Part shown: one piece after another, positions 17,980 through 35,222 of the stretch
How the letters are laid out: each line of letters opens with the position of its first letter
Numbering within the stretch: the stretch's first letter is position 1
Assembly: GCF_004194535.1 (NCBI RefSeq)
Contig: NZ_CP025781.1
Span: 248,001-312,000, forward strand
Length of the DNA stretch: 64,000 nt
Direction: 5' to 3'
Origin: Iodobacter fluviatilis
Lineage (GTDB): Bacteria > Pseudomonadota > Gammaproteobacteria > Burkholderiales > Chitinibacteraceae
Program-made: the position numbers and the translations under genes
The notes under the pieces: generated by a model
What the model was told of the DNA's origin: nothing
The model's input: the letters and a program-made list of their open reading frames with translations, nothing else
Databases searched by the model: none

Positions 17980-18070
17980 GCCAAGACGTAAAAATAGAGG
18001 AAAACCCCTAGAGCTTCCGCCTCACAATGCAACACTTCAGCCCTTGTTTTGTGCTGAAGTCCTTCGCGTA

Positions 18071-18451
18071 TTAACTATTTAGCATCTCGCCATCTAAGTA
18101 ATACCAACGCCCCTCTTCATAAATAAAGCGGCTTCTTTCGTGTAATTTCCAAGCCTTGCCCGCTATTTTATAACGCGCAATAAATTCCACCTCGCCATTA
18201 ACACCCGCCGCCTGCGCATGTTTAATTTTTAAACCCAACCAGCGCACTGGCTCTTCATCGCTCATGGCTTCTGGCCGCGTTGTAGCATGCCAAGTGGCCA
18301 ATAAATAATCATGCAAGCCAAATACAAAAGCACTGTAGCGCGAGCGCATTAACTGCTCAGGCGTTGTAGCCGCAGCGCCATCATGCCAAGGGGCACAGCA
18401 ATCAGCGTACTCACGCCCGCTTTCACAAGGGCAGCTCTTATTCTTTAGCAT
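18071..18451 (-). CDS. ychJ: YchJ-family protein (SEC-C zinc motif)
   Basis: 126 residues. It has an N-terminal SEC-C type zinc motif (CPCESGREYADCC, residues 7-19) and then the YchJ-like NTF2-fold domain (RSRYSAFVFGLHDYLLATWH, in parts, and the EFIARYK and GRWYYLDG segments). It matches the UPF0225/YchJ family, whose function is not established; the SEC-C motif suggests interaction with other proteins. It is transcribed alone. Confidence 0.82.
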   Translation of the reverse strand: MLKNKSCPCESGREYADCCAPWHDGAAATTPEQLMRSRYSAFVFGLHDYLLATWHATTRPEAMSDEEPVRWLGLKIKHAQAAGVNGEVEFIARYKIAGKAWKLHERSRFIYEEGRWYYLDGEMLNS

Positions 18452-18503
18452 TCACACACCTGCACTCATCACATTTGAAAGCCTCGCATCATACTGAAGT
18501 TAG

Positions 18504-18545
18504 AGTCTGTTGACGTTTTCCGGCTCAGCGCAATAGCGAATGAAA
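18504..18545 (+). repeat. R2, internally deleted remnant
   Basis: About 40 bp carrying one R2 end (GAGTCTGTTGACG) joined directly to the distal end (TTTTCCGGCTCAGCGCAAT, then GCGAATGAAAC). The whole middle of the element is missing. Confidence 0.65.
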
Positions 18546-18622
18546 CTTAGCGTAATAATGCAGCGACCAACGCGAGGCGATGGCGTAAAATAAGCGTTTT
18601 CAGCTCTTCTATCGGCCACTGC

Positions 18623-19288
18623 ATGTATTTAACTTCTAAACCACTTGCCGCCCTTTTTGATATGGATGGGCTGATGTTAGACACGGAAAGCATCGGTATT
18701 GAATGCTGGACTGAAGCGGCGGCTGCGCTCAGTGTGGATATGCCACGTACCCTAGTCATTGGCATGATTGGTATGCATTACAGCAAAACCGACGCTTATC
18801 TCCTTGAGCATCTCGGCTCAGCAGCCCCAATAGATAAGTTACGTACAGCTTGCCACAAGCTATATATGGAGCGCACACAAGCGCCAATAGCACACCGCCC
18901 TGGGCTGAATGATATTTTAAGCTGGCTTGAAGAAAACAATATCCCTAAAGCCGTTTGCACATCCACACGGCGTAGCATTGCAGAGCATCATTTACGCGCA
19001 GCGGGCCTTTGGCCGCGTTTTCAGTTTGCCATCTGCGGGGATGAAGTCACCCACCCTAAGCCCGCACCAGAAATTTACCAAAAAGCCGCTGCCGCATTTA
19101 ATTTCCCTACTGAATCGTGCCTCGTATTAGAGGATTCCGATTTTGGCGTACAAGCGGCCCATCAAGCTGGCTGCAAAGTCATGATGATCCCCGATCTACG
19201 CCCCCCTTCGCGGCATTCTTTAGCGCTCAACATCCCGATTTTAAGCTCCCTGAGTGACGCAAGAGATTTACTCACACAAGCCCAGTAA
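18623..19288 (+). CDS. HAD-superfamily phosphatase (beta-phosphoglucomutase/phosphoglycolate phosphatase-like)
   Basis: 221 residues. Motif I is FDMDGLMLDTE with the nucleophile D13 and acid/base D15, motif II is CTSTRR, motif III is K in THPKPAPEIY, and motif IV is LEDSDFG. A four-helix C1 cap lies between motifs I and II. The class hydrolyses small phosphate esters or isomerises sugar phosphates; the substrate cannot be told from sequence. It stands between repeat DNA and a methyl-accepting protein gene and is not obviously in an operon. Confidence 0.85.
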   Translation: MYLTSKPLAALFDMDGLMLDTESIGIECWTEAAAALSVDMPRTLVIGMIGMHYSKTDAYLLEHLGSAAPIDKLRTACHKLYMERTQAPIAHRPGLNDILSWLEENNIPKAVCTSTRRSIAEHHLRAAGLWPRFQFAICGDEVTHPKPAPEIYQKAAAAFNFPTESCLVLEDSDFGVQAAHQAGCKVMMIPDLRPPSRHSLALNIPILSSLSDARDLLTQAQ

Positions 19289-19462
19289 ACCTTACGCCTT
19301 AGCCTGCCAAATCAAAGACAGACTAAGGCCCAGCAAAAAATTTAATCCATTTACAGAAACCCCAGCCCCCTCCGCGCCTTCATCGCCATACCATAGAGAC
19401 GTAGCAAACAGCCCCACCTATAAGCGATTCCCCTTCACGCGAATAAACTCAGACGCACCACA

Positions 19463-19502
19463 AAAAAGGAACCAGCGACATAATCAAGTCCTTTTTTGTT
19501 TT
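19463..19502 (+). terminator. terminator-like hairpin after the HAD gene
   Basis: AAAAAAGGA ... TCCTTTTTT inverted repeat ending in a T tract. A weaker hairpin GCCTTAG/CTAAGGC lies at 19295-19325. No coding sequence is apparent in 19289-19563. Confidence 0.5.
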
Positions 19503-19563
19503 ATACACAGCACCGCCCTATATTGAATTTCTAAGGGAAGTCCAATATCAAGGCCATTAACCG

Positions 19564-20703
19564 ATGAAAACGCACAGATATTTATGGAATGGGTGCAATC
19601 TGCTCAGCGCAACGCTGGCTATTGTGATGGCAGGAATGCTCAATTTACCTTGGCTAGCCGCCCTTTATTTCCCTATAGGTATGTTATTTAATCGCCTCGC
19701 CCACGCCAAACCACCCACTGCAATTGAGCCCCTCACTCAAAAGGACGATGCTGAACCCGCGCCCCTCCCTCAATTGCTGACCGCAGTGGCCCCAATATGG
19801 CGTGGCAATATCGAGCTAGCTAGGCGGCAATCTGAAGAAGCAGGTAATCAACTAGGCCAAACACTAAGAGATATAGCCGTGGATTTACGCGCCACGATTC
19901 GTGAATCACGCGGAGAATCTGACGACAATCACAACGGCCAGCACAACTTGAGCCAATTGATTGATCATGTACGTGAGCGCACCAACAGCCTTACCCACAT
20001 CCTTGCGCAAACATCTAGCCACCGTGAAGAGCTAATTAACCAAGTCACCAGTCTTGCCAATTTCTCCTCCGAGTTAGATTCAATGGCAAAAGGCGTAGCG
20101 GTCATTGCCAACCAAACCAATTTACTTGCACTCAATGCCGCTATTGAAGCTGCGCGGGCAGGTGAATCGGGCCGAGGCTTTGCCGTAGTTGCCGATGAAG
20201 TTCGCAAGCTTTCTACGATGTCGGCTGAAACTGGCAAGCAGATGTCCATCAAAGTAGCCGACATCGATCACGCCTTACGGGACGCAGGCCAAAAAGCCGC
20301 CAATATCAGCACCAGCGAATCTCAGCAAATAGGGATGGCCTTGCAATTACTCAATGAATCTCTTTCTGATTTCACCAGTGCCACACAGCAAATGGCACAG
20401 ACCAATAGCAATTTACAAGCTCAGGGCAATAAAGTTGAACAAGAGCTGAATCAAACCTTAGTTGCTCTTCAGTTTCAAGATAGGGTGTGCCAGATGATGG
20501 CGCATGTTGAACAAGACTTAAGCCACCTAGAAGATTACTTAGCCGCTCTAATCAGTGCCCCCATCGATTCTCCACCCCCGCTATCTCTAGCAGACTGGCT
20601 AGCCCGATTACGCAGCACTTACTCCACTCAAGAGCAAGCGGCATTGCATGGCGGCTTACCAAGCAAGCCGAGCACAGCAGCAGGGGAGCCCGAGTTCTTT
20701 TAA
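19564..20703 (+). CDS. methyl-accepting signalling protein without a periplasmic sensor
   Basis: 379 residues. Two close hydrophobic segments (about 14-26 and 28-43) form a hairpin with almost no periplasmic loop. The rest is cytoplasmic coiled coil with the receptor hairpin tip ([20 protein letters not shown], then [11 protein letters not shown]) that binds CheA/CheW. There is no recognisable HAMP or ligand-binding domain, so it would report on a membrane or cytoplasmic signal. The C-terminal part ([18 protein letters not shown]) resembles receptor-like proteins in which a conserved FQD-type helix follows the signalling domain. It is followed by a terminator and lies just before the chemotaxis cluster. 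Confidence 0.82.
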
Positions 20704-20708
20704 AGCTA

Positions 20709-20735
20709 TCGGCACTGCAATGGTGCCGTTTTACT
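20709..20735 (+). terminator. terminator
   Basis: GGCAC-tgcaatg-GTGCC type hairpin followed by TTTT, directly after the methyl-accepting protein gene. Confidence 0.65.
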
Positions 20736-20857
20736 CGATGGCCACCGCTCAAAACATAATAAAACCGCACACCATGTAGGGGCGCTGCTTGCTACGCCCC
20801 TTTACCAATCCGGCAGCTTGACAGCAAATATTAAATCCTGATTGACACTGGCTCATG

Positions 20858-20898
20858 AAGTGCTAAATCTAATCAATGTAATGATTATTTAAGCACTT
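20858..20898. promoter_or_regulatory. nested palindrome, upstream copy
   Basis: Outer arms AAGTGCT/AGCACTT and inner arms TAATCA/TGATTA, concentric. The same structure recurs at 24464-24504 upstream of cheY. It belongs to a duplicated block of about 74 bp (20851-20925 and 24457-24531) and is a candidate regulator-binding site or leader structure. The 20704-21192 gap holds this block, an R2 repeat and a STAS fragment. Confidence 0.5.
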
Positions 20899-20925
20899 AC
20901 GAATACATACCCAAATAAAGCTTAG

Positions 20926-21124
20926 CGACATGGTACGAGTACCATCAGCGATTTTTAACTTTCGTTCCGCCCCCAAAAGGAGCTAAACCCGAAGGGCTGA
21001 GCCGGTGAATGAGCATTCACTGCGTGATGCTCCTCGACAATAACCCGTTATTGCCTTCATCACATGCCTTGTGCTTGGCCGTTTTCCGGCTCAGCGCAAT
21101 GGCGAATGAAACATCAACAGACCC
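20926..21124 (-). repeat. R2, copy replacing cheY in the upstream chemotaxis block
   Basis: This matches the reverse complement of most of the complete R2 at 34814, including the GGTACGAGTACC hairpin, the CCCGAAGGGCTGAG segment and the end GAATGAAACATCAACAGACC. One terminus is missing. It lies exactly where the downstream copy has cheY and the 5' part of the STAS gene. Confidence 0.8.
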
Positions 21125-21206
21125 CGCCATGAAACACACCTTCCAAAATCTAGGCGTAATGGTGTGCTCAAGACTGCCAACAGAGGCCCACCATGATGGA
21201 TCTTAG
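21119..21206 (+). pseudogene. 3' remnant of STAS-domain gene
   Basis: From AGACCCCGCC onward this is nearly identical to the last 88 bp of the intact STAS gene at 25202-25289 and keeps its stop at 21204-21206. Only about 28 codons remain, fused to the R2 end. It is not expected to be functional, but it retains the overlap with the following cheA start. Confidence 0.8.
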
Positions 21207-21870
21207 CAAAGCAAGGCTAATCTTTTTTGAAGAAGCTGAAGAGCTATGCGATGCGCTAGAAACCGCCCTGCTCGATCCTATCGCCTACCCACCCAGCACG
21301 GAAACTTATAACTTATTATTTCGTACCGCCCATACCATTAAAGGCTCTGGCGGCATCTTTGGGCTGGAAGCCTTGGTGAGATTTGCCCATGTTGTCGAAA
21401 ACGTATTAGAGCGCTTACGTAGCAATCAACTGGCCTTAAGCGATGAGTTAATTTCGCTCCTACTCGCCAGCAATGATCACCTACGCCGCTTGCTGTTAAC
21501 CAGCGCGGGCAGTGAAGCAATGGCCTTAGTGGATCTGCCCAAAGGCATACCGCTGCTAGAAAGCCTGTATCAATATCAAGACGTACAACCCACAGCCCGC
21601 AGCGTTTCTGACATCGTAGCGCCTCCAAATGAACCGCTTACCCTTTCGCCGCTGCGGCAGTTTTCTTTACGTTTATATCCTAATACCTTTCGATTTGATT
21701 TCTACCCACTTTCTTTTTTACACGACTTGAATATCAGTGGCTCCACCATGTTGGGCAGTGGCAAACCAGCACTGGTGCTGGATATCCCCCAACCTATTCA
21801 ACACGCGTGGCGGCGTGAACGTAAGCTAATTCGTCAACACACTGAAGCATCCGTCAGGGATAAGCATTAG
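21193..21870 (+). CDS. truncated CheA: HPt (P1) domain joined to the C-terminal tail
   Basis: 225 residues, where the intact neighbour has 737. Residues 1-about 150 are nearly identical to CheA at 25276, including the phospho-accepting His47 in RTAHTIKGSGG. The sequence then jumps in frame to the last 45 residues of CheA (ISGSTMLGSGKPALVLDIPQ onward). Dimerisation, ATPase and most of the CheW-like domain are gone. It cannot phosphorylate itself, but it could accept phosphate from another CheA as an HPt protein. The loss (about 1.5 kb) kept the reading frame and the start and stop, so a product is possible. Otherwise it is a pseudogene. Confidence 0.75.
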   Translation: MMDLSKARLIFFEEAEELCDALETALLDPIAYPPSTETYNLLFRTAHTIKGSGGIFGLEALVRFAHVVENVLERLRSNQLALSDELISLLLASNDHLRRLLLTSAGSEAMALVDLPKGIPLLESLYQYQDVQPTARSVSDIVAPPNEPLTLSPLRQFSLRLYPNTFRFDFYPLSFLHDLNISGSTMLGSGKPALVLDIPQPIQHAWRRERKLIRQHTEASVRDKH

Positions 21871-21903
21871 CACCAACCACCGTTTGTCAAAAAGGAAATC
21901 AAA

Positions 21904-23541
21904 ATGAACTGGTTCCACAACATCCGCATCCAAATCAAGCTTGCAATCGGCTATGGTGTCATTCTGCTGCTAATGGCTGGCATTCTCTGGGTAGGCATCA
22001 GTAGCTTGGGGCTTATGAGCGATCAAACACAAGAAATTGTGGATGATCGATACGCCAAAGTTGATATGTCTAATAGCATTATTAACAACACACTCAATAA
22101 CGGCCGATCAATTAGAAATATGGTTTTGGTCGAGCCTGCTCAGCAAGAACAACACAAAGCTGATATTGAAAAACGCCGAGCCGAAAACAAAGCATTGCTT
22201 GATCAGCTAGACAAAACCATCAACACCACAAAAGGGAGAGAGGGATACAACAAAATAATGGCACAAAGAAACACATTAAATGAGAAGTACACCACCTTTT
22301 ATGGCTTAGCAGCACAAAAAGATCGCAAACCCGCAATTGATTTTTTACTTAAAGAATTTGCCCCTAGCAATACCGCCTACACAGAAGCATTAAATGAATT
22401 TGGCGGCTTCCAACAAGAAAGGATGCTGGCGCTTAGCAAGGAGTCAAAAGCAAGCGCCGTGAGTACACGTAGTTTGATGCTGCTGTCAGGTGGAATAGCA
22501 CTAGCCGTCACCATCTTGCTCGCCGTATTAATTACCCGCAGTGTTTTACGCCAGCTCGGAGGTGATCCATTCTATGCCATGACGATTGTGGCCCGCGTTT
22601 CTGAGGGTGATTTAGCCGTGCCGATCCGCCTAAGCGCCAATGATGATTCCAGCCTGCTGGCCTCCATCAAAGCCATGACCCACCGGCTATCTGGCACGCT
22701 TACAGAAATTGGCTCGATGGCCAATGCCATTACCAGCGCCTCGGAACAAGTTTCATCTGCGGCCAATTCCCTATCACAAACCTCATCCGAGCTGGCCTCA
22801 AGCGTAGAAGAAACCAGCGCTTCGATCGAAGAAATGAGCGCCACCGTCTCTCAAAATGCCGACAACGCAAGGGTAACAGAAAGCATTGCGTCTAAATCTG
22901 CCGGTAGCGCCACCCAAGGCGGCAAGGCCGTTAGCGATATGGTGCACGCCATGAAGGAAATCGCCTCGCGCATCACCGTTATCAATGATATTGCCAACAA
23001 AACCGATCTACTTGCCATCAATGCCGCGATTGAAGCCGCCCGCGCAGGCGAGCATGGCAAGGGCTTTGCCACCGTGGCCGTTGAAGTGCGTAAATTGGCT
23101 GAGCGCTCACAAGTGGCCGCAAAAGAAATCGGCGATTTAGCCAGCAAATCCGTTGGCGTTGCCGAACGTGCAGGGACTTTGCTGCAAGAAATGCTGCCGG
23201 GTATTGATCAAACAGCCACGCTGGTGCAAGAAATCTCCGCCGCATCGCGCGAACAACGCACCGGCATTGATCAGATTAATTCTGCGGTCACCCAAATCAA
23301 TGGCGGCATGCAATCTTCCGCAGCTTCCGCCGAAGAGCTGAGCTCTACCTCAGAAGAGCTCAGCGCCACAGCCATGCAATTGCAGGAGCTACTGCAGCAA
23401 TTTAATTTGCGCGGCAGCAAAAGTACTCGGCGCAGCAGCGCTCACACCCCCGCCCGCCGAGTTGTTGTACCTACCTCTTACAATCACCACGATGAAGACT
23501 TGGATGATGATGTAGATGACGATAAGTTCAGCAAATACTAG
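21904..23541 (+). CDS. methyl-accepting chemotaxis protein (copy A)
   Basis: 545 residues with AAGGA before the ATG. TM1 is at about 12-33, then a periplasmic four-helix-bundle-like sensor (34-190), TM2 at 191-211, a HAMP at about 212-265 ([12 protein letters not shown]), and a long signalling coiled coil with tip [21 protein letters not shown] (in parts). The C-terminus is an acidic tail ([16 protein letters not shown]) without the usual CheR-binding pentapeptide. From about residue 216 on it is almost identical to the copy B receptor at 27529, but the sensor halves are unrelated. It lies between truncated cheA and cheW copy A. Confidence 0.9.
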
Positions 23542-23595
23542 TTTCATACACGGCTGCGTTTGGCCCAGTTTTGGGGCAAAACCCGAAGGGCTGAG
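23541..23595 (+). repeat. R2-derived fragment before cheW copy A
   Basis: GTTTCATACACGGCTGCG onward through GCCCAGTTTTGGGG to CCCGAAGGGCTGAG, parts of R2 as in the fragment at 29347. Its last bases overlap the cheW ribosome site GAGGAG. Confidence 0.6.
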
Positions 23596-23605
23596 GAGAA
23601 GAACC

Positions 23606-24142
23606 ATGAAAGAACATCTTGATGCTAGCGATGCAAAGCACCCCAACAAGTTTCACTGCGTCACCTTTATTTTGGGGGAAGATCTGTTTGGGATACAGAT
23701 TAATTTCATCCGTGAAATCATCGAATTTGAAGGGATTACCCACGTCCCAATGATGCCCAATTTTGTAAGGGGCATTATTAATCTACGTGGCTCGGTGGTG
23801 CCGGTGATTGATCTCTCCGTGCGTTTTGGCCGTGAGCTAACCGTGCTTAAGCCCTCTACCTGCGTAGCAATTCTCTCTTTACCGGGGCTGGAAGGCTATT
23901 CTGAGGTGGGCATTTTGCTAGATGCGGTGTGCGAGGTATTAGAGATTCCTATGGAGGATATTGACCCGACCCCCACTTTTGGCGCGCGCATTCGTGGCGA
24001 TTTTATTCAAGGCATCGCCACCATTGAGGAGCGTTTTGCCATTTTACTGAATGTGCAACGTGCGCTATCGGTGGCCGAACTGAGCGCCATGGCCGAATCC
24101 GTAATGCAGCTGCATTTGGCCGAAGACACCGAGGCGGCTTAA
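23606..24142 (+). CDS. cheW: chemotaxis coupling protein CheW (copy A)
   Basis: 178 residues. The CheW fold is recognisable from FILGEDLFGIQINFIREIIE, the repeated glycine-rich NLRGSVVPVIDLSVRFG block, and GILLDAVCEVLEIP. It links receptors to CheA. The ATG at 23606 has GAGGAG nearby, so the longer upstream frame is rejected. It differs from copy B (29425) at only about ten residues, mainly at the two ends. It is followed by the first bases of cheR, then an IS remnant, so nothing further in this copy is intact. Confidence 0.92.
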   Translation: MKEHLDASDAKHPNKFHCVTFILGEDLFGIQINFIREIIEFEGITHVPMMPNFVRGIINLRGSVVPVIDLSVRFGRELTVLKPSTCVAILSLPGLEGYSEVGILLDAVCEVLEIPMEDIDPTPTFGARIRGDFIQGIATIEERFAILLNVQRALSVAELSAMAESVMQLHLAEDTEAA

Positions 24143-24458
24143 TTGACAGAGGCTTTGTTGCACAAATTAGCCAGACCTCGCTACAAACGCATGAGTAAGC
24201 CTGAACCAAGCAAGTACCCCACCCATTAGAACGCCTATCACGCCGCACTTAAATTGTGCGGTTCACTGCCGGTTTGGTTTGATAAAAACATGCAATGGCA
24301 CGCACTCCTAATAAAAAAACGCGGATGGCAAAACTACCAATGCGTGTTGCGATCTTAAATCGCTTCACGCAATTGGGTATGCCACTGACGATGTGCGTGA
24401 CGTAAATCCGTATGGCGTTTGGGGCTAATCGTTCTTAAATTGATTTGTGCAACAAAGC
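24143..24458 (+). mobile_element. IS5-family remnant at the duplication junction
   Basis: Perfect 16-bp terminal inverted repeats GCTTTGTTGCACAAAT at 24152-24167 and 24443-24458. Inside is a decayed transposase start (MSKPEPSKYPTH, stop, NAYHAALKLCGSLPVWF), typical of the IS5 group, with the rest deleted. The left end follows the first ten bases after the cheW stop (the cheR start TTGACAGA), and the right end abuts the duplicated promoter block. No clear target duplication is seen. Confidence 0.8.
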
Positions 24459-24463
24459 TCATG

Positions 24464-24504
24464 AAGTGCTAAACCTAATCAATGTAATGATTATTTAAGC
24501 ACTT
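24464..24504. promoter_or_regulatory. nested palindrome upstream of cheY
   Basis: AAGTGCT/AGCACTT around TAATCA/TGATTA, as at 20858. It lies 82 bp before cheY in the intact operon, in the expected position for an operator or activator site. Confidence 0.5.
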
Positions 24505-24585
24505 ACGAATACATGCCCAAATAAAGCTTACATACAATCACACCAATCTTGTCTACCCGCTTTTTACTACGATGGCTTAACTACC

Positions 24586-24957
24586 ATGGCAAAAAAAACG
24601 ATTTTGATACTGGATGACTCGGCCAGCATGCGAGCAACCGTCTCCATTACCTTAAACGGAGCGGGCTACGAGGTGATTGAGGCCAAAGATGGTAACGAAG
24701 GGCTAAGCAAGCTCTCTGGGCTACGCGTCAATCTGATTATTTCTGACGTTAATATGCCCGGCATGGATGGCATCACTTTTCTAAAAAAACTAAAAGAGCA
24801 AGCGGCGCATCGCTATGTGCCGGTGATTATGCTGACCACAGAATCAGCCGATGATAAAAAACAACAAGGCAAGGAGGCAGGGGCAAAAGCTTGGATTGTT
24901 AAACCATTTGAACCCGCCAAATTACTCGACGCGGTCTCCAAGCTGATTCAACCCTAA
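24586..24957 (+). CDS. cheY: CheY-type response regulator
   Basis: 123 residues, receiver domain only. Acid pair D10/D11, phospho-acceptor D54 in IISDVNMPGMDG, switch Thr in MLTTES, and the conserved Lys in WIVKPFEP (K106). It carries the phosphate from CheA to a target (the flagellar switch or another output). It is the first gene of the intact chemotaxis operon and is 11 bp before the STAS gene. The upstream copy of the operon lacks it. Confidence 0.93.
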   Translation: MAKKTILILDDSASMRATVSITLNGAGYEVIEAKDGNEGLSKLSGLRVNLIISDVNMPGMDGITFLKKLKEQAAHRYVPVIMLTTESADDKKQQGKEAGAKAWIVKPFEPAKLLDAVSKLIQP

Positions 24958-24968
24958 GCGAGCACACC

Positions 24969-25289
24969 ATGTCACTGCTGCTAGAACACCACAATGGCCA
25001 AACTTTGGCACGGCTACAAGGCGAGCTTACGATATTCAATGTAGCCGAAGCCCAAGATGATTTACTCAACCTGCTCAATCACGATGAAGTGATCATTGAT
25101 CTGTCTGAAGTCAGTGAATTAGATAGCTGTGGCGCGCAATTACTGGCTATTTTGCAGGCTGAAGCGATAAACACAGGCAAAAGTATTGCGCTCTTCACCC
25201 TAGACCCCGCCATGAAACACACCTTCCAAAATCTAGGCGTAATGGTGTGCTCAAAGTTACCAACAGAGGCCCACCATGATGGATCTTAG
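24969..25289 (+). CDS. STAS-domain protein (anti-anti-sigma-like)
   Basis: 106 residues. The STAS fold is shown by GELTIFNVAEAQ, IIDLSEVSELDSCGAQLLAIL and the final helix. The DSCG motif keeps a Ser at the position phosphorylated in SpoIIAA-type proteins. Its end overlaps the cheA start by 14 nt, so the two are translationally coupled. STAS proteins occur in some non-canonical chemotaxis operons, but their target there is generally unknown. The other possibility is a structural partner of CheA. Confidence 0.85.
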   Translation: MSLLLEHHNGQTLARLQGELTIFNVAEAQDDLLNLLNHDEVIIDLSEVSELDSCGAQLLAILQAEAINTGKSIALFTLDPAMKHTFQNLGVMVCSKLPTEAHHDGS

Positions 25290-27489
25290 CAAAGCAAGGC
25301 TAATCTTTTTTGAAGAAGCTGAAGAGCTATGCGATGCGCTAGAAACCGCCCTGCTCGATCCTATTGCCTACCCACCCAGCACGGAAACTTATAACTTATT
25401 ATTTCGTACCGCCCATACCATTAAAGGCTCTGGCGGCATCTTTGGGCTGGAAGCCTTGGTGAGATTTGCCCATGTTGTCGAAAACGTATTAGAGCGCTTA
25501 CGTAGTAATCAACTGGCCTTAAGCGATGAGTTAATTTCGCTCCTACTCGCCAGCAATGATCACCTACGCCGCTTGCTGTTAACCAGCGCGGGCAGTGAAG
25601 CAATGGCCTTAGTGGATCTGCCCGAAGGCATACCGCTGCTAGAAAGCCTGCATCAATATCAAGACGTACAACCCACAGCCCGCAGCGTTTCTGAGATCGT
25701 AGCGCCTCCAAATGAACCGCTTGCCCCGCAAAACTCACCCCATGCCCTTTCACCGCTGTGGCAGCTTTCTTTACGTTTTCATCCTGATACCTTTCGATTT
25801 GGTTTCGACCCGCTTTCTTTTTTACATTACTTGCAAGGGTTTTGTTCAATTAAGCATATTGAACCGGTCTGGCGTACTTGGCCCGCCATGCAGCTTTTCG
25901 ACCCCACAGAATGCTTTATTGGTTTTGAAATCAGCCTGGAATCGGATGCCACAGCCGATCAAATCAGTGGCACTTTTGATTTTGTGCGTGATGATAGCCT
26001 CATCGGCATCCTGCCTCCTCACGCCCCATTAGCGCTTTATCGTCAGCTGGCCGAGCAGCTGCACGCACAAAGAGGCGAAGACATTGCCGATCAGCTTGCA
26101 CGCTGGTGCGCAAGGGGGGCCTTAAATAACACAGAAGCAATACACGTCCGCAGTGGCAGCTTCGCTATCGCTGAAGAGCCCGTTGCGAGCTATAGCAGCA
26201 CAGAGCAAGCGAATACCAGCAGCGCAGAGCCAACTAAATCCAGCAGCGCAGACCAGCTCCCTACCAACAACAAAACCGCTAAAGCCCCTAAAACCGAAAG
26301 CCAATCCATCCGCATTGAAACCGCCAAGCTTGATCGGCTGATTAATCGCGTAGGCGAGCTGGTGATTGCCGCATCCGGCACCAAGCTGATTGCACAGCAA
26401 CGCGGCGATGCCGAGCTGATTGAATCGGTTGCCATCATCAATACCTTGGTAGAAAGCATTCGTGATGACGCACTGACCTTACGCATGGTGCCGGTTGACG
26501 AGATTTTCAGCCGCTTTCCACGCATGGTGCGCGAAACCTCCAAACAACTCGGCAAAGCCATTCATCTTGAAATCAAAGGAGCCGAAACCGAAGTCGATAA
26601 ATCGATGGTAGAAAAACTCACCGATCCACTGATGCACATTATTCGCAACGCGGTAGACCACGGTTTGGAGCCCGCAGCGCAACGCCTTGCCGCCAATAAA
26701 CCAGAAGTAGGCACGGTCACCCTCAATGCCTATCACGATGCAGGCTCGGTGGTGGTAGAAGTCAGCGACGATGGTGCAGGGATTAATCGCGAAAAAGTAC
26801 TCGCCAAAGCGCTTGAGCGCTCCCTCATCAATGATGAACGCCAGCTTTCCGATCAAGAAATTTTACAGCTGATTTTTTTACCCGGCTTTTCAACCGCCGA
26901 TGCCGTCAGCGATTTATCGGGCCGTGGCGTGGGCATGGATGTGGTGAAGCGCAATATCGAATCTTTGCGCGGCGAAATAGAAATCCATTCTCGCCCAGGA
27001 ATAGGCTCTACTTTCCGGCTGCGGCTGCCACTCACCTTAGCCATTATCGATGGCTTCCACGTTGAAGTAGAGAACTCAGCCCTAGTCATGCCGCTAGATA
27101 TGATGATTGAGTGCGTTGATTTACCGCCAGAAGCCATGGATCACAACACCAGACAAATCAATCTACGCGGTGACTGGCTGCCGTTTATCTCACTACGTGA
27201 GCTATTTGGCTTACCCACAGCGCATACCCCAGAATTTATCGTGATTGTGCATTACGGCGAAAACCGTGCGGGCATTGTGGTGGATCGCCTGATTGGCGAG
27301 CTACAAGCCGTCATCAAGCCCTTAGGCGATATTTTTAAATCGCTACGTGGTATCAGTGGCTCCACCATTTTGGGCAGTGGCAAACCCGCACTGGTACTGG
27401 ATATCCCCCAACTTATTCAACACGCATGGCGGCGTGAGCGACGCTTTATCCGTCAACACACCGATGCCGCCGTTTTGGAAAAGCATTAA
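25276..27489 (+). CDS. cheA: chemotaxis histidine kinase CheA
   Basis: 737 residues. P1/HPt with His47 (RTAHTIKGSGG); a central region about 150-290; a Ser/Thr/Lys-rich linker (SSAEPTKSSSADQ); P3 dimerisation helices (LDRLINRVGELVIAASG); P4 ATPase with N box HIIRNAVDHGLEP, DDGAGIN and GRGVGMDVVKRN; P5 CheW-like domain to the end. All catalytic boxes are present. It autophosphorylates under receptor control and passes phosphate to CheY and CheB. A damaged copy of the gene lies at 21193. Confidence 0.95.
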   Translation: MMDLSKARLIFFEEAEELCDALETALLDPIAYPPSTETYNLLFRTAHTIKGSGGIFGLEALVRFAHVVENVLERLRSNQLALSDELISLLLASNDHLRRLLLTSAGSEAMALVDLPEGIPLLESLHQYQDVQPTARSVSEIVAPPNEPLAPQNSPHALSPLWQLSLRFHPDTFRFGFDPLSFLHYLQGFCSIKHIEPVWRTWPAMQLFDPTECFIGFEISLESDATADQISGTFDFVRDDSLIGILPPHAPLALYRQLAEQLHAQRGEDIADQLARWCARGALNNTEAIHVRSGSFAIAEEPVASYSSTEQANTSSAEPTKSSSADQLPTNNKTAKAPKTESQSIRIETAKLDRLINRVGELVIAASGTKLIAQQRGDAELIESVAIINTLVESIRDDALTLRMVPVDEIFSRFPRMVRETSKQLGKAIHLEIKGAETEVDKSMVEKLTDPLMHIIRNAVDHGLEPAAQRLAANKPEVGTVTLNAYHDAGSVVVEVSDDGAGINREKVLAKALERSLINDERQLSDQEILQLIFLPGFSTADAVSDLSGRGVGMDVVKRNIESLRGEIEIHSRPGIGSTFRLRLPLTLAIIDGFHVEVENSALVMPLDMMIECVDLPPEAMDHNTRQINLRGDWLPFISLRELFGLPTAHTPEFIVIVHYGENRAGIVVDRLIGELQAVIKPLGDIFKSLRGISGSTILGSGKPALVLDIPQLIQHAWRRERRFIRQHTDAAVLEKH

Positions 27490-27528
27490 ACCCTGCCCCA
27501 CGTTATTTAATCTCGTTAGGAGATCATC

Positions 27529-29184
27529 ATGAACTGGTTTCATAGTTGGAAAGTAAGCAGCAAGCTCATAGTTTCATTTATTACTGTGCTAGCACTACTG
27601 CTGGGGGTGGCGTTTCTGGGTTATTCATCCACCAGTAAAACCAACGAGTTGATTGGCGAGATGTACGCCAATCAACTCACCCCCATTAAAGATATCGCCA
27701 ATGCAAATATGCAGGCGATCTACATCAACCGCGCGCTTTACCGCTACGTATTAGAAACCAACCGCAGCGATATGGAAGCCACCGAAGCACGCATGATGAA
27801 GTTTGAAACGGAGATGGTTCGGCTGCTGGATAAATACCGCAAGACTGAGCTCACCCCCATAGAAATCGATGCACTGAAGCGTTTTGATGCCTCATGGCCT
27901 CCCACTAAAGAAGCCGCCAAAGAAGTGATGCAACACTCCTATGCAGATAACGGGGATGGCAAAGAAAACAAAATCGCTTTTGATATCCTGACCAAAAAAG
28001 CCAGACCCTTATTTGATAAATCAGATGACATCCTTACCGAGCTGGTGGAGATCAATTCAAAACTAGCAGACGACGCACTAGGCCAAAGCAAAAAAACCTT
28101 TGAAGGCACGGTAAAGGAAATTGCCTTTGTCTCTGGCGTGGCCATTTTGCTTGGGATATTTCTAGCCCTTTTAGTCACCCGTAGCATCCAGCGCCAATTG
28201 GGGGGCGATCCATCCTACGCTATGGGTATTGTGGCCCGTGTTTCTGATGGTGATTTAGCCGTGCCGATCCGCCTAAGCGCCAATGATGATTCCAGCCTGC
28301 TGGCCTCCATCAAGGGCATGACCCACCGGCTATCTGGCACGCTTACAGAAATTGGCTCGATGGCCAATGCCATTACCAGCGCCTCGGAACAAGTTTCATC
28401 CTCGGCCAATTCTTTATCGCAAACCTCTTCCGAGCTAGCCGCAAGCGTAGAAGAAACCAGCGCTTCGATCGAACAAATGACCGCCACCGTTACCCAAAAT
28501 GCCGACAACGCAAGGGTAACGGAAAGCATTGCTTCTAAATCTGCCGGTAGCGCCACCGAAGGCGGCAAGGCCGTTAGCGATATGGTGCACGCCATGAAGG
28601 AAATCGCCTCGCGCATCACCGTTATCAATGATATTGCCAACAAAACCGACCTACTTGCCATCAATGCCGCGATTGAAGCCGCCCGCGCAGGCGAGCATGG
28701 CAAGGGCTTTGCCACCGTGGCCGTTGAAGTGCGTAAATTGGCCGAGCGCTCACAAGTGGCCGCAAAAGAAATCGGCGATTTAGCCGGTAGATCCGTTGGC
28801 GTTGCCGAACGTGCAGGGACTTTGCTGCAAGAAATGCTGCCGGGTATTGATCAAACAGCCACACTGGTGCAGGAAATCTCCGCCGCATCGCGCGAGCAGC
28901 GTGGCGGCATTGATCAGATTAATGTGGCCGTTACCCAAATCAATGGCGGCATGCAATCTTCCGCAGCTTCCGCCGAAGAGCTCAGCTCTACCTCAGAAGA
29001 GCTCAGCGCCACGGCCATGCAATTGCAGGAGCTACTACAGCAATTTAATTTACGTGGCAGCAAAAGTACCCGGCGTAGCAGCGCTCACACTCTCGTCCGT
29101 CGAGCGGTCGTACCTATTCCTTCCAATCACTACGATGAAGACTTGGATGATGATGTAGATGACGATAAGTTCAGCAAATACTAG
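27529..29184 (+). CDS. methyl-accepting chemotaxis protein (copy B)
   Basis: 551 residues with AGGAG before the ATG. TM1 is at about 12-31; the periplasmic helical sensor spans about 32-196, with [19 protein letters not shown] and [17 protein letters not shown] helices as in four-helix-bundle (4HB_MCP) sensors. TM2 is at about 197-217, followed by HAMP and a signalling domain nearly identical to copy A, with the same acidic tail. It has no CheR-binding pentapeptide. It should report a small-molecule signal to the CheA/CheW encoded around it. The stop codon lies within the CTAG target of an R1 element. Confidence 0.92.
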
Positions 29185-29344
29185 CAGCCTGTCGGCCTTA
29201 AGCGATCGTAGCGAGGGAAAGACCGGTTTGAGACAGATTTAGCGAATTTTTGAGGCGAATAGCTGGCTATTCAACGAGAAAATGCGTGAAATATGGCCAA
29301 ATCCGGCTTTTCCGTAGTAGATCAGTCTTAAGTCCGACAGGCTG
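29185..29344 (+). repeat. R1 MITE-like element, copy 2
   Basis: 160 bp with R1 terminal repeats and about 95% identity to the copy at 841. It is flanked by CTAG (which contains the receptor's TAG stop) and ATAG. It is absent at the equivalent place in copy A (23541), which gives a natural empty site. Confidence 0.85.
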
Positions 29345-29346
29345 AT

Positions 29347-29414
29347 AGGGTCTGTTGACGTTTCATACACAGCTGCGTTTGGCCCAGTTTTGGGGCTAAA
29401 CCCGAAGGGCTGAG
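29347..29414 (+). repeat. R2-derived fragment before cheW copy B
   Basis: AGGGTCTGTTGACGTTTCAT followed by the GCCCAGTTTTGGGGCTAAAC segment and CCCGAAGGGCTGAG of R2. It runs into the cheW ribosome site. Confidence 0.7.
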
Positions 29415-29424
29415 GAGAAGAACC

Positions 29425-29961
29425 ATGAAAGAGCGTCTTGATGCTAACGATGCAAAGCACACCAACAAGTTTCACTGCGTCACCTTTATTTTGGGGGAAG
29501 ATCTGTTTGGGATACAGATTAATTTCATCCGTGAAATCATCGAATTTGAAGGGATTACCCACGTCCCAATGATGCCTAATTTTGTAAGGGGCATTATTAA
29601 TCTACGTGGCTCGGTGGTGCCGGTGATTGATCTCTCCGTGCGTTTTGGCCGTGAGCTAACCGTGCTTAAGCCCTCTACCTGCGTGGCGATTCTCTCTTTA
29701 CCGGGGCTGGAAGGCTATTCTGAGGTGGGCATTTTGCTAGATGCGGTGTGCGAGGTATTAGAGATTCCTATGGAGGATATTGACCCGACCCCCACTTTTG
29801 GCGCGCGCATTCGTGGCGATTTTATTCAAGGCATCGCCACCATTGAGGAGCGTTTTGCCATTTTACTGAATGTGCAACGTGCGCTATCGGTGGCCGAACT
29901 GAGCGCCATGGCCGAATCCGTAATGCAGCTGCATTTTGCCGATGACACCGAGGTGGCTTAA
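29425..29961 (+). CDS. cheW: chemotaxis coupling protein CheW (copy B)
   Basis: 178 residues, nearly identical to copy A. It has the same GAGGAG ribosome site and the same CheW blocks (FILGEDLFGIQINFI, NLRGSVVPVIDLS). It couples the copy B receptor to CheA. The stop TAA is followed at once by the TTG of cheR. Separation from the receptor gene by R1 and R2 DNA (240 bp) may lower or change its expression relative to copy A. Confidence 0.93.
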   Translation: MKERLDANDAKHTNKFHCVTFILGEDLFGIQINFIREIIEFEGITHVPMMPNFVRGIINLRGSVVPVIDLSVRFGRELTVLKPSTCVAILSLPGLEGYSEVGILLDAVCEVLEIPMEDIDPTPTFGARIRGDFIQGIATIEERFAILLNVQRALSVAELSAMAESVMQLHFADDTEVA

Positions 29962-30837
29962 TTGACAGATGCCGCTTCAAAGAAAGACCAGCATCAATTT
30001 GATACAGGTCCTACTCTTAATCAGATGGAGTTCGAGCAATTTCGCCACTTTATTTTTTCTGAGGCGGGCATTGATATGCCGCCCAGCAAGCGGGCGCTCA
30101 TTCAATCTAGATTGGCGGTTAGATTACGCGAGCTAGAGCTCAATAGCTTCAGCGCTTATTGGCAAAAGTTACAACACCCCAGTGGCGCAGCTGAACGGCA
30201 AAAAGCCATTAATCTGCTTTCTACCAATGAAACTTATTTTTTCCGCGAACCCGATCATTTCACTTGGCTACAGCAGCACGTTATTGAGCTATCCAAACAT
30301 GGTAATCGGCATATTAAAATATGGTCCGCAGCCTGCTCTACAGGGGAAGAAGCCTATACGATTGCAATCGTGCTAGCCGAAGCACTTGGCATCAATGGCA
30401 ATTGGCAACTTTTTGCCTCTGATATCAACACACGCGTTACCGCGTTTGCCAAAAGAGGCGTTTACCCATTAGAGCGCGCCAAGAAAACCCCGCCTCATCT
30501 ATGGCAAAAATATTTTTTACGTGGCCGCGATGAATACAGCGGCCAAGTTCGCATGGTTCCCCAATTAATCAAACGAATTAATTTTTTCAATCTAAACTTA
30601 CTGCAAAGCGATGCGTATCAGCAATCTGGGTTTGATATTATTTTTTTACGTAATGTGCTTATTTATTTTAATGAAGAGACAAAATTAAAAGTATTGGGCA
30701 ATTTATGCCCTAAGATTATAAATGGCGGCCATTTATTAATTAGCCATGCTGAAACAATACGTAATAAAGAACTACCCTTATTTATGGATGGCCCTTCACG
30801 TTACTGCGTAAATCAACCTTTTAACCCACACCGGTGA
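29962..30837 (+). CDS. cheR: chemotaxis methyltransferase CheR
   Basis: 291 residues if started at the TTG that abuts the cheW stop; an internal ATG 22 codons later is the alternative. The N-terminal helical domain is followed by the SAM-binding domain with [26 protein letters not shown] and [13 protein letters not shown], all standard for CheR. It methylates glutamates in receptor coiled coils using SAM. The extreme 5' end of this gene is also present in copy A before the IS remnant. cheB follows after 4 bp. Confidence 0.93.
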
Positions 30838-30841
30838 CCCT

Positions 30842-31918
30842 ATGGGCATTAATGTTTTAATCGTTGATGATTCTGCTGTAGTACGAGAGATCCTGACTCA
30901 GGTGCTGGATGCTGCGAGTGATATTAAGGTGCTTGCCGCCGTGCCAGATCCAATTTTTGCCATGCAAAGAATGAAAATACAATGGCCTGATGTGATTGTG
31001 CTTGATATTGAAATGCCGCGTATGGATGGCCTTACCTTTCTACGCCGCATTATGGGCGAGCGCCCCACCCCCGTTGTGATCTGCTCATCTCTTACAGAAC
31101 AAGGCGCCGATATCACTATGGATGCGATGTCAGCGGGTGCAGTCTCTATCGTCACAAAACCTACCCTTAATCTCAAAACCTTTTTGCAAGGTGCGGGCAA
31201 TGATTTAGTACAAGAAGTGCGTGCCGCTGCCGCCGCCAGAATGAGCTCGATGCGGCCATTCAAGACCCAGCATGATAGATCCATGCCCGGCCCAAAACTC
31301 ACTGCGGATGCCATACTGGAAGCACCATCGGGTAAAACGATGTTTCGTACTACCGATAAACTGATCGCAGTGGGTACATCTACTGGCGGCACACAAGCGC
31401 TGGAATTTATACTCCCTAAATTACCCACCAATTGCCCTGCAATGGTGGTGGTACAACATATGCCTGAGCAATTTACCCGTGCATTTGCCGAACGCTTAAA
31501 CCGTATTTCGGAGGTGGAAGTTCTTGAGGCAAAAGATGGCGCAAGACTGATGCCTGGCCTTGTATTGATTGCGCCTGGCGGCCGACATTTACTAGTAAAA
31601 CGCAGCGGCGCACAATATATCGCCGAGGTAAAAGACGGCCCGCTGGTTTCTCGGCATCGCCCATCAGTGGATGTACTATTTCGCTCTGTTGCCATTAGCG
31701 CAGGCAGCAATGCCCTAGGAGTGATTATGACGGGGATGGGGGATGATGGCGCGCGCGGCCTGCGTGAAATGCACGATGCTGGCGCACGTACCTTGGCCCA
31801 AGATGAAAAAACTTGCGTCGTATTTGGCATGCCCAAAGAAGCCATTGCCCATGGCGGCGTGGATGAAGTTGTTTCTCTAGCACAAATTGGGCAAACACTG
31901 GCAGCGCAACGGAGTTAA
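30842..31918 (+). CDS. cheB: chemotaxis protein-glutamate methylesterase CheB
   Basis: 358 residues. Receiver domain with D55 ([11 protein letters not shown]), a linker at about 125-170, and the esterase domain with [11 protein letters not shown] (catalytic Ser), QHMPEQFT (His) and [11 protein letters not shown] (Asp). It removes receptor methyl groups or deamidates glutamines when phosphorylated by CheA. It completes the adaptation pair with CheR. No CheD is present in the cluster. Confidence 0.94.
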
Positions 31919-31925
31919 CACCACC

Positions 31926-33128
31926 ATGCCTCATTTAGAAAAATGGCGTAACCGTATTGCCTTAGTGGTGGATGACTCCCCAAGCCATTGTCTGGCGGCC
32001 GTTGAATACCTCACAGATATTGGTTTTGCCCACGTCTATGTTGCGCAAGACGGCAAAGAAGCCTTAGATATCTTACAAACAATTGAGCATGTTGACTTTA
32101 TTTTGACCGATTTAAGAATGCCTGGCATGGATGGCATTGAATTTCTGGGCTGCTTGGCTAAGGCATCCAAACAGTATTTTATTTCTGTGATGAGCGAAGT
32201 ACCACGCGATGTGCTAGATACCGTGCAGGGCATTGCAGATGCCTCCAGCCTAGAATTATTAGCCGTGATGCAAAAGCCGCTCACGCCTGAATCGATCTGT
32301 ACCCTACTCAAAAAATCCAACCCAAACTTACAAACCAGTAACACCATTTGGCCACTTTTTAACTTTAGCACTGATGAAGTCTCTCTTGCGCTGGATGCGC
32401 ACGAATTACATTTCTATTTTCAACCCAAGGTCACAATTGTTAATAAAAAACTCATAGGATTTGAAGCGCTGGCCCGCTGGCTACATCCAATACACGGCGT
32501 ACTGCCACCGATTGCTTTTATTCATCATGTGGAACATGGAGAATTAGCCCTGCGCTTTTTTTATGACTTAGTCGGCGCAAGCTGCGATATGTTAAAAAAA
32601 TTGCATACGGTGGCCGGCGGCATTCATTGCTCTATTAATTTACCCGTTCCTTTATTAGATCGCCCAGAGCTGGTAGATAAAATGCAGTCAATTGTTGAAG
32701 CCAAAGGCATTGAGAGCAGATTCATTATTGTTGAAGTCACCGAAACCACTTTAATGTCAAATCTAGCCACCTCTCTAGGGGCTTTAGCAAGGCTGAGAAT
32801 AAAAGGCTTTGGCGTAGCGATGGATGATTACGGCTCAGGTTATTCTTCCATGAAACAATTATCCCGCTGCCCCTTTACCGAAATAAAAATTGATAAAGAA
32901 TTTGTGCATGACACAGTACATCGCCCAAAGAAACTTGCTATTTTGACTTCGGCTATTTCTATGAGCCAACGCCTTAATCTAAAAGTAGTCGCAGAAGGCG
33001 TTGAAACAGAAGAAGATTGGAATCAATTATCCGCCTTGGGCTGCGATATTGCCCAAGGCTACTTTATTAGCAGACCTATCCCTGAAGAAAAAGTTTTGGC
33101 ATGGATTGCCCTATGGCAATCCCCATAG
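31926..33128 (+). CDS. response regulator with EAL c-di-GMP phosphodiesterase domain
   Basis: 400 residues from the ATG at 31926 (GGAG 11 nt before); the longer frame from 31887 is rejected because it overlaps cheB without a ribosome site. Receiver domain (1-125) with D62 in LTDLRMPGMDG. EAL domain (about 155-395) with EALARW, the metal/substrate residues in SINLPVP, VEVTET, DDYGSGYSS, KIDKEF, VAEGVET and QGYFISRP, all retained, so phosphodiesterase activity is predicted. As the last gene of the chemotaxis operon it probably lets CheA or another kinase control c-di-GMP breakdown. Confidence 0.9.
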   Translation: MPHLEKWRNRIALVVDDSPSHCLAAVEYLTDIGFAHVYVAQDGKEALDILQTIEHVDFILTDLRMPGMDGIEFLGCLAKASKQYFISVMSEVPRDVLDTVQGIADASSLELLAVMQKPLTPESICTLLKKSNPNLQTSNTIWPLFNFSTDEVSLALDAHELHFYFQPKVTIVNKKLIGFEALARWLHPIHGVLPPIAFIHHVEHGELALRFFYDLVGASCDMLKKLHTVAGGIHCSINLPVPLLDRPELVDKMQSIVEAKGIESRFIIVEVTETTLMSNLATSLGALARLRIKGFGVAMDDYGSGYSSMKQLSRCPFTEIKIDKEFVHDTVHRPKKLAILTSAISMSQRLNLKVVAEGVETEEDWNQLSALGCDIAQGYFISRPIPEEKVLAWIALWQSP

Positions 33129-33138
33129 CAAAATAAAA

Positions 33139-34089: not shown

Positions 34090-34188
34090 AAATAATCCCA
34101 TATTAAAAACCCACGCCTTGTTCTGCGCAAGCGGAAGATGATCAAGCAAATAGCAGAGCACTTACATTTTCTATAAAGGTAAAAAACC

Positions 34189-34740
34189 ATGCATCAAGTC
34201 GATATTTTTCTTGCCCCAGGTTTTGAAGAAATAGAATTAGTAACGGTGGTTGATATTCTACGCAGAGCCAATATCAATACCCGCCTAATTGCTGTGGCAG
34301 ACCATACCGCAGTTATGGGGGCACACCAAATCACCTTAGAAGCGGACATAACACTGGCTCAAGCCGACAATGACACACAGATGTTAGTGCTACCCGGCGG
34401 TGGGCCTGGCACACAGGCAATGATGGCCTCTGTAGAGTTAATCAGCCGGCTTAAAGCCCATTTTGCCGCAGGCCGCCCCATTGCCGCTATTTGCGCGGCC
34501 CCAATGGTGTTAGCCAAAGCAGGCCTACTTAGAGAAAATAAAGCCACATGTTTTCCCGGCTGCGAAGCCCCATTGCTCGCTGCAGGAGCCATCATTAGTG
34601 GCGGCGATGTCATTGTAGATGGTCTTATCACCACATCTCGCGGGCCTGGTACGGCTGCTGCATTTGCTTTTGAGCTGGTCCGCCAAATTAAAGACGAAGC
34701 CATTTCCCAAGCACTGCGCACAGAAATGCTATTTGATTAA
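34189..34740 (+). CDS. yajL: DJ-1/PfpI-family protein (YajL-like)
   Basis: 183 residues. Active Cys is C102 in AAICAAP with the conserved Glu in GFEEIE, and the family end motif TSRGPGTAAAFAFELV. DJ-1/YajL proteins act as redox-sensing chaperones or glyoxalase/deglycase enzymes. The gene is divergent from hprA and ends 73 bp before an R2 element. Confidence 0.9.
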   Translation: MHQVDIFLAPGFEEIELVTVVDILRRANINTRLIAVADHTAVMGAHQITLEADITLAQADNDTQMLVLPGGGPGTQAMMASVELISRLKAHFAAGRPIAAICAAPMVLAKAGLLRENKATCFPGCEAPLLAAGAIISGGDVIVDGLITTSRGPGTAAAFAFELVRQIKDEAISQALRTEMLFD

Positions 34741-35213: not shown

Positions 35214-35222
35214 TTTCGCTCA

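Follow-up and report, generated by a model that had tools for sequence, protein, structure and literature searches.

The chemotaxis operon examined here is probably a locus at which the sensor can be swapped, with the strain holding both sensor types in tandem and having shed the redundant genes. It lies in the window, a stretch of 64,000 nucleotides of Iodobacter fluviatilis (contig NZ_CP025781.1, positions 248,001 to 312,000), by whose own numbering all positions are given. The genes, gene fragments, upstream blocks and dispersed-element piece described below lie on the + strand; the IS remnant and the insert in copy B carry no strand assignment.

The tandem repeat of the operon, first proposed in the initial annotation, was recovered when the window was aligned to itself with blastn, all blocks lying in the same orientation and order. 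The upstream blocks (20851-20924 and 24457-24530) were 97.3% identical (E-value 6e-29). The pair 21119-21729/25202-25833 was 93.4% identical with gaps (21 columns) counted, and its aligned cheA codons 96.4%; the receptor block (22513-23541/28156-29184) was 92.1% identical and the cheW block (23541-24153/29360-29972) 97.9% (E-value 0 for all three). The repeat and its order therefore hold, although the receptor block is less alike than the description 'near-identical' implies. A fifth block at the cheA end, 21732-21869/27351-27488 (86%), had been overlooked. An assembly artefact is an unlikely cause of the repeat, given the 2-17% difference between the copies in alignable blocks and their unlike sensing halves. 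The single-copy relative that had been called for was found in the sister genome G001 (L039; Iodobacter sp. isolate 337R_metabat_28), where only matches of >60 bases were counted for operon layout and of >35% identity for genes. This genome carries one operon in the same order, cheY-STAS-cheA-receptor B-cheW-cheR-cheB, between the same flanks, without copy A, the IS remnant or the element between receptor and cheW, and the upstream blocks of both copies align to one stretch of it.

In the downstream copy (copy B), the upstream block (24457-24530) is followed by cheY (24586-24957; 96% to G001), a STAS-domain gene (24969-25289; Pfam STAS), cheA (25276-27489; 737 aa; Pfam Hpt, H-kinase_dim, HATPase_c and CheW) and receptor B (27529-29184; 551 aa), whose type-B sensing half extends from 27529 to about 28180 and precedes the signalling half. 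Then come cheW (29425-29961), assigned by comparison with G001 and copy A, and cheR (29962-30837) and cheB (30842-31918), both single-copy here and assigned by comparison with G001. A response regulator-EAL gene (31887-33128; synteny, Pfam) is the syntenic downstream neighbour. The insert between receptor B and cheW (29185-29414), not seen in G001, consists of a 168-bp element with inverted ends and a dispersed-element end; its last ~55 bp are common to the copy A spacer. No Rfam family reached threshold within 18000-36000.

In copy A, the losses listed by the initial annotation were all confirmed, namely cheY, most of the STAS gene, about 1.5 kb of cheA and cheR past its first 8 bases (24143-24150; compare 29962-29969). 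The upstream (promoter-region) block (20851-20924) is followed by a MITE-like piece (20925-21118) in place of cheY and most of STAS. Genome repeat matches identify it as a 194-bp piece of a terminal-inverted-repeat element with its left end missing, which has at least 41 matches in the genome (40 of 119 candidates scored). Its borders were compared over 8 copies, a fuller copy lying at about 34815-35083, and its right end joins STAS inside a common AGACCC. The remaining 3' end of the STAS gene (21119-21192; 94.6% to 25202-25275) leads into a shortened cheA of 225 codons (21193-21870; Pfam Hpt only), an internal fusion that places the Hpt region in frame with the last 46 codons, frame and stop being intact. 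Receptor A (21904-23541; 545 aa; type-A sensing half from 21904 to about 22540) and cheW (23606-24142; 98.1% to copy B; Pfam CheW) complete the copy. No sigma-70-like match was found on the + strand at 20700-25000; the promoter scan returned 2 sites where 5.6 were expected.

The seam between the copies is occupied by a 309-bp IS remnant (24151-24459) with both terminal repeats (GGCTTTGTTGCACAAAT, 17/17, and its complement, 16/17). A relative of 1,036 bp in G002 (L083:591-1626) encodes a 310-aa DDE transposase (Pfam DDE_Tnp_1 and DDE_Tnp_1_5). The paired terminal inverted repeats and this relative identify the remnant as an insertion sequence, which we take to be IS5-type, a name that follows the initial annotation. 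The remnant begins right after the first cheR bases, as described before, but at its right end it shares 3 bases with the promoter block. No target-site duplication was found, the flanks at 24150 and 24460 being different, so that the remnant could mark a rearrangement joint. With the MITE-like piece in the cheY-STAS gap, mobile-element remnants are present at two joints. The IS may have mediated the duplication, but a deletion next to it once the copies existed would explain its position at the seam equally well; the rest of the window contains no further IS end, and the flanks show no repeat.

The two receptors differ sharply between their halves, a difference missed at first: the sensing halves are 21-23% identical and the signalling halves 92-93%, with the break near 22540, at the sensor/HAMP boundary. 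Both are 4HB receptors by Pfam, with 4HB_MCP_1 and MCPsignal above cut-off (72.7 and 117.6 bits for receptor A; 110.5 and 120.1 bits for receptor B). AlphaFold2 models of the sensing halves, built from alignments of 6/8 type-A and 8/14 type-B rows, contain four helices in agreement with the four-helix-bundle fold (mean pLDDT 82.7 for A and 84.7 for B). A sequence search against solved structures gave no match to either sensing half at E 0.01; in a fold search with the models, solved receptor ligand-binding domains ranked top. The best matches, Vc1313 and MCP2201, were identical for both halves, and therefore the ligands are not told apart. Receptor A combines its type-A four-helix-bundle sensing half with a native-like HAMP region and signalling half. 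The sensing half is closest to receptors of the same operon in G006 and G008 (86% and 83% identical, respectively), with low synonymous divergence. These results contradict the claim that copy A is a decayed duplicate that kept its receptor, and simple duplication and decay was rejected for the receptor, as the sensing halves are not duplicates.

In collections with a single genome for each species, 20 genomes proved to carry the operon, with type A in 5, type B in 11, both in 3 and neither in 1; cheB matches <45%, cheY matches <50% and weaker overlapping matches were dropped. Receptors of >500 aa with the signalling motif entered the comparisons and trees, the distant loci L054-L069 being left out. 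In the sensing-half tree of 24 rows, type A formed one group (support 100/98). The sensing halves group by type across two families, whereas the signalling halves do not. The signalling-half tree contains 6 label changes, at least 4 of them forced by starred branches; 186 of 500 label shuffles gave a number as low, and the AU test rejected an A clade (p 2e-51). The two trees thus conflict in the manner of a recombining sensor locus. Sensing-half identity was 14-23% in pairs of different type (112 pairs), whose signalling halves reach 96%, and 28-92% in pairs of the same type (119 pairs). Among 8 hand-picked close pairs, three displayed a clear and two a partial low-identity window, which runs from about -100 to +630 relative to the receptor start; G439/G434 had none, and G442/G451 and G000/G001 had a mild dip only. 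The division into two types is a simplification, because type B contains a deep subgroup (G435, G447 and G449; 32-36% to the B of the window). DprA is present, but as its family was also detected in 11/14 control genomes, its presence is weak evidence of competence.

Synonymous divergence between the copies is uneven. For the start of cheA (cheA-N) and cheW, dS between copies A and B was 0.05 and 0.03, compared with 0.59 and 0.46 to single-copy G001. These values bear out a close relation of the copies that postdates the G001 split, and by this measure the cheA start and cheW are recent duplicates. For the signalling half and the cheA end, dS was 0.23 and 0.41, and approximate Fisher tests of the unequal values gave p of 1.2e-4 or less. 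The copies are therefore not a tandem operon duplication in which all retained parts are homologous and of the same age, because the sensing half is not a duplicate and dS is unequal between parts. Against G006, the type-A sensor differs at 48.8 of 133 synonymous sites, in contrast to 60% of such sites in mid-cheA (p 1e-5) and 63% in the upstream gene (p 5e-7). Against G008, the synonymous difference was 0.40 for the type-A sensor and 0.62 for the type-B sensor (p 9e-4). A comparison of cheB with G006 points the same way (65%, p 1e-7) but is given no weight here, since the cheW, cheR and cheB genes of G006 themselves seem to have been replaced.

On the reading we prefer, recombination would swap the periplasmic sensing half between two four-helix-bundle types (A and B), leaving the signalling half and the neighbouring genes in place. 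The downstream unit is a complete operon with receptor B. The upstream duplicated stretch has a receptor with an A sensing half, its own upstream block and its own cheW, without the genes supplied by copy B (cheY, most of STAS, mid-cheA and cheR onward). The A sensor may have been obtained by exchange with another Iodobacter, and the history would comprise duplication, sensor import and loss, in one of several possible orders. Receptor A would be expressed and sense a different ligand, and presumably feeds the same CheA, because the signalling tips of both receptors read alike; holding both sensors may be useful.

One version of this reading, with which its odds overlap, is that recombination placed a type-A operon from the same species next to the resident type-B one, copy A being wholly the other allele. 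Such a fusion is a real possibility, at somewhat less than even chances. Divergence between the copies peaks at the sensor and is mostly low away from it, and the type switches back and forth among closely related genomes; however, the copies differ by 7-11% in the third signalling block and in the tail but by 3% in the second block, which does not fit a smooth fall from the sensor. Six low-divergence blocks are mutually even (p 0.43), whereas all eleven blocks are not (p 5e-14), a test of little weight because the six were chosen after their values were seen. Duplication followed by sensor import fits the same data, and a single type-A operon was not seen in the species, represented by one genome. 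At the cheA joint, one-sided (homology-facilitated illegitimate) integration is not favoured, divergence being already raised within cheA codons 155-187.

It is more doubtful that copy A is a non-functional relic in a neutral arrangement, a reading that may overlap the other histories. Amino-acid changes exceed expectation relative to silent changes between the copies in cheA-N (p 0.009), cheW (p 0.0015) and the signalling half (p 0.0002), and because of this excess in three parts, part of copy A may be decaying. When changed codons were polarised with G001, the A side had more amino-acid changes than the B side in each part: 8 amino-acid and 4 silent against 0 and 2 in cheA-N (5 unpolarised), 4 and 2 against 1 and 2 in cheW (1 unpolarised), and 12 and 23 against 1 and 10 in the signalling half (8 unpolarised). 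In cheA-N, 6 of the 8 A-side amino-acid changes fall at codons 155 onward, where the changes may have been imported instead of arising by decay. The excess of amino-acid change agrees with the selective decay proposed earlier; the receptor, however, is not a simple decayed duplicate. Against a relic, receptor A and the copy A cheW are open with intact domains, and G008 and G435 also carry both types, arranged differently. Since both kinds of sensing half turn up again at this locus in related bacteria, copy A looks more like a means of holding both sensors than plain decay.

The account given by the initial annotation, a plain IS-mediated tandem duplication of one operon followed by decay, is improbable for the locus as a whole. 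The recent duplicate blocks, the remnant at the seam, the gene losses and the amino-acid excess all agree with it, and it could hold for the promoter, cheA-N and cheW. Conversely, the receptor A sensing half groups with G006, G008 and Chromobacterium records rather than with copy B, the cheA end is too divergent for the age of cheA-N, and the window contains no IS end besides those of the remnant. Descent of both receptors from the common ancestor of Iodobacter, with losses in G001 and G002, would explain why G008 has both and G006 has A and part of B, but is very unlikely given the low synonymous difference of the A sensor (0.37-0.40 to G006/G008, against 0.60-0.63 in mid-cheA and the upstream gene for G006 and 0.62 in the type-B sensor for G008) and the unlike junctions of receptor A, which follows a cheR fragment in G008 and G006 and the cheA end in the window.

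A wider form of the swappable-sensor reading is put forward tentatively: two cassettes may circulate between Iodobacter and Chromobacterium on resident signalling halves, as a two-state locus across families under selection for alternating cues, and tandem arrays would be fixed 'heterozygotes' that read both.

A sensing half that varies between close relatives, attached to an output half that is conserved, is familiar from Bacillus comQXPA and staphylococcal agr, peptide quorum sensors that co-vary with their own signal gene. For the Group A Tlp chemoreceptors of Campylobacter, the published work describes extensive recombination among tlp genes and, in some strains, two Tlps in tandem, one gene apart (PMC6433261). 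Those receptors have dCache sensors at several loci, with repeats bounding an invertible element (PMC6433261), whereas four-helix-bundle sensors in one conserved che operon are found here, the two types being shared by two families and here present in tandem. In Vibrio cholerae, displacement of T6SS effector-immunity modules is likewise a modular exchange anchored in conserved flanks that leaves remnants, comparable to the receptor-B piece in G006 and the cheR piece in G006 and G008, although effector and immunity genes are exchanged there, not receptors (PMC5361080). Sensor exchange therefore has precedent, and the pattern seen here is a new variant; no paper on the locus or the pattern was among the matches listed in open-licence PMC text.

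These results make replacement of a sensing half in place visible within one conserved operon, with discernible borders, apparent leftovers of past exchanges in G006 and G008, and three arrangements that hold both types. The natural receptor pairs, differing mainly in the sensor, would make it possible to test directly whether the pairing of alleles by duplication gives bacteria a second sense.

All repeat blocks described in the initial annotation were recovered by self-comparison of the window, in the same order and on one strand, together with an additional block absent from that annotation at the end of cheA (21732–21869, repeated at 27351–27488). Divergence between the upstream reduced copy of the chemotaxis operon (copy A, 20851–24150) and the downstream complete operon (copy B, from 24457) is uneven over the eleven blocks that remain once the pre-receptor spacer, the sensor and the start of cheR are set aside (p = 5e-14). 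Identity is 97.3% in the promoter region, 94.6% in the STAS tail, 96.3% in cheA codons 1–154, 86.7% from codon 155 to the block end, 83.0% at the cheA end, 89.6% in HAMP and the first signalling block, 97.3% and 92.6% in the second and third signalling blocks, 89.1% in the tail, 96.9% in the spacer and 98.1% in cheW, and the receptor sensing half reaches 44.3% in a forced alignment. The six least diverged blocks, picked after the values were seen, are mutually even (p = 0.43).

The receptors of copy A (21904–23541, 545 aa) and copy B (27529–29184, 551 aa) each comprise a four-helix-bundle sensing domain and a signalling domain (Pfam), and both sensing halves were also modelled as four-helix bundles in predicted structures. 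The sensing halves share 21–23% identity and the signalling halves 92–93%. The 100-base segment of copy A at 22440 is 88% and 87% identical to receptor A of the Iodobacter genomes G006 and G008, respectively, and 42% to copy B, whereas the corresponding values at 22560 are 66%, 68%, and 90%. Judged from sequence, this break sits at the expected start of the HAMP region. The receptor A frame is open across all 545 codons.

The closest named relatives of the operon are Iodobacter records. The initial annotation, which read the locus as an IS-mediated tandem duplication, looked to relatives for a single-copy locus, and the sister genome G001 has this arrangement: its one operon has flanks that align to both sides of the locus in the window genome (4.59 Mb, 4 contigs), at 18069–20896 (three pieces), 24465–29184, 29406–34741, and 35180–37000. 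G002, too, has only one copy of the operon, and it carries receptor B. Synonymous divergence between the copies is 0.05 for the common 5′ part of cheA (cheA-N) and 0.03 for cheW, compared to 0.59 and 0.46 between copy B and G001 (approximate Fisher p = 6e-13 and 3e-11); therefore, these parts are recent duplicates, or have been homogenised since. In contrast, the signalling half (0.23) and the cheA end (0.41) are older or imported (p = 1.2e-4 or less for these). A dispersed-element fragment before cheW is common to both copies and absent from the G001 spacer, indicating that the relation of the copies postdates the split from G001.

In cheA-N, cheW, and the signalling half, amino-acid changes between the copies are in excess over silent ones (p = 0.009, 0.0015, and 0.0002, respectively, by Fisher tests), which argues against every part of copy A having a role. 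Of the eight amino-acid changes on the A side of cheA-N, six fall at codon 155 or beyond and may instead have been imported. The in-frame cheA remnant of copy A consists of Hpt and the last 46 codons, and no kinase, dimerisation, or CheW-like domain was found in it by Pfam.

In copy A, the place of cheY and most of STAS is taken by 194 bp (20925–21118) of a dispersed element of ~270 bp, which also lies at 656–840 and ~34815–35083 and genome-wide; the fuller copy at ~34815–35083 terminates in inverted repeats TAGGGTCTGTTGACGTTTCATTCGC. The 194-bp piece has at least 41 matches in the window genome, and the element is matched in 8 of 9 Iodobacter genomes, this one counted. Since the left end of the piece is missing and its right end joins STAS within a common AGACCC, its position is that of a deletion joint, not of a clean insertion. 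An open frame at 21009–21206, possibly a chance one, begins in the element, reads through to the tail of STAS without a change of frame and overlaps the shortened cheA start. A different repeat of ~168 bp, also with inverted ends (CAGCCTGTCGG...), adjoins the dispersed element at both its places, 837–1005 and 29181–29349 (97% identity).

The seam (24151–24459) is a 309-bp IS remnant with both ends present. Of the 17 other matches to it in the genome, the majority cover all or part of either the left 160 or the right 130 bases, and at several sites two such matches form a pair ~780–950 bp apart end to end; one match (76%) spans the middle. A relative in G002 is 1,036 bp long and encodes a DDE transposase. 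The duplication may have been mediated by the IS, as initially annotated, or the IS may have removed cheR onward at a later stage.

Judged by cheA, the operon is present in 20 genomes: 5 of 9 Iodobacter genomes (identity of at least 79%, against no more than 46% in the remaining four), 14 of the 61 genomes in the G288 family, which includes Chromobacterium records, and 1 of 10 in the G341 family. All 4 found among 399 genomes sampled evenly over the order were already among the 20; with such sampling, incompletely sampled families may hold more. Typed by the sensing half, five genomes have type A only (G451, G442, G450, G448, and G006, the last with a receptor B fragment), eleven type B only (G444, G447, G449, G288, G114, G446, G439, G434, G001, G002, and G436, typed through locus L053), three both (the window strain, G008, and G435) and one, G341, neither. 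A deep type-B subgroup (G449, G447, and G435; 32–36% identity to the sensing half of window receptor B) is perhaps a third cassette.

In the sensing-half tree of 24 receptors (22 typed and the 2 of G341), the 8 A rows form a single group (100/98). Fitting the type label to the signalling tree takes 6 changes, no fewer than 4 of them forced by starred branches, and 186 of 500 label shuffles give 6 or fewer; an A clade on this tree was rejected by the AU test (p = 2e-51). Different-type pairs (112 of 231) show 14–23% sensing identity and up to 96% signalling identity, whereas same-type pairs (119 of 231) show 28–92% sensing identity. Among eight hand-picked pairs of close relatives, G449/G448, G450/G449, and G450/G442 exhibited a clear low-identity stretch between about −100 and +630 relative to the receptor start, with better conserved flanks; it begins at about +200 in G008/G002, is shallower in G447/G435, is a mild dip in G442/G451 and G000/G001, and was not found in G439/G434. 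The G450 and G442 receptors (C. vaccinii and C. piscinae records) have signalling halves 99% alike, type-A sensing halves 62% alike and flanks of 90–99% DNA identity, which may reflect exchange or fast change within type A.

The two types occur together as receptor A and cheW upstream of the complete operon with receptor B (window), as receptor B, cheW, a cheR fragment, receptor A, cheW, and cheR (G008), and as receptor B, receptor A, and one cheW (G435). In G006, a similar cheR fragment precedes receptor A, and receptor B is reduced to 89 codons of its sensing half. The 3′ half of the G006 operon (L041, 14314–16803) seems to have been replaced, because dS against its sister species G008 is 0.95–2.04 for cheW, cheR, and cheB, far above the 0.05–0.22 for mcpU, cheY, and cheA. 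Downstream of it, at 18120–19121 of L041, there is another partial receptor gene of 333 aa, with a signalling half that is 65% like receptor A.

Between the window and G006, 48.8 of 133 synonymous sites differ in the type-A sensor, compared to 60% in mid-cheA and 63% in an upstream receptor-like gene (p = 1e-5 and 5e-7); between the window and G008, the type-A sensor differs by 0.40 and the type-B sensor by 0.62 (p = 9e-4). Because its divergence is the lower, the A sensor would, by this clock, have moved between Iodobacter lineages after their split; a slower clock in the sensor is possible.

Work on the Campylobacter Tlps describes recombination among chemoreceptors sharing signalling halves (PMC6433261), and that on Vibrio cholerae T6SS modules describes modular displacement leaving remnants (PMC5361080). 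Compared to these accounts, the present case concerns one conserved operon, with two types of sensing half that recur across two families and with both types in tandem in three arrangements; no report of such a two-type tandem pattern was found among the matches listed in open-licence literature text. The signalling tips of receptors A and B are identical, which would allow either sensor, through the conserved signalling half, to drive the resident CheA, CheW, CheR, and CheB. We infer that the copy A receptor is expressed, has ligands of its own and brings a benefit; with those proteins supplied by the resident operon, copy A would need only the promoter, the receptor, and perhaps cheW, near to what survives.
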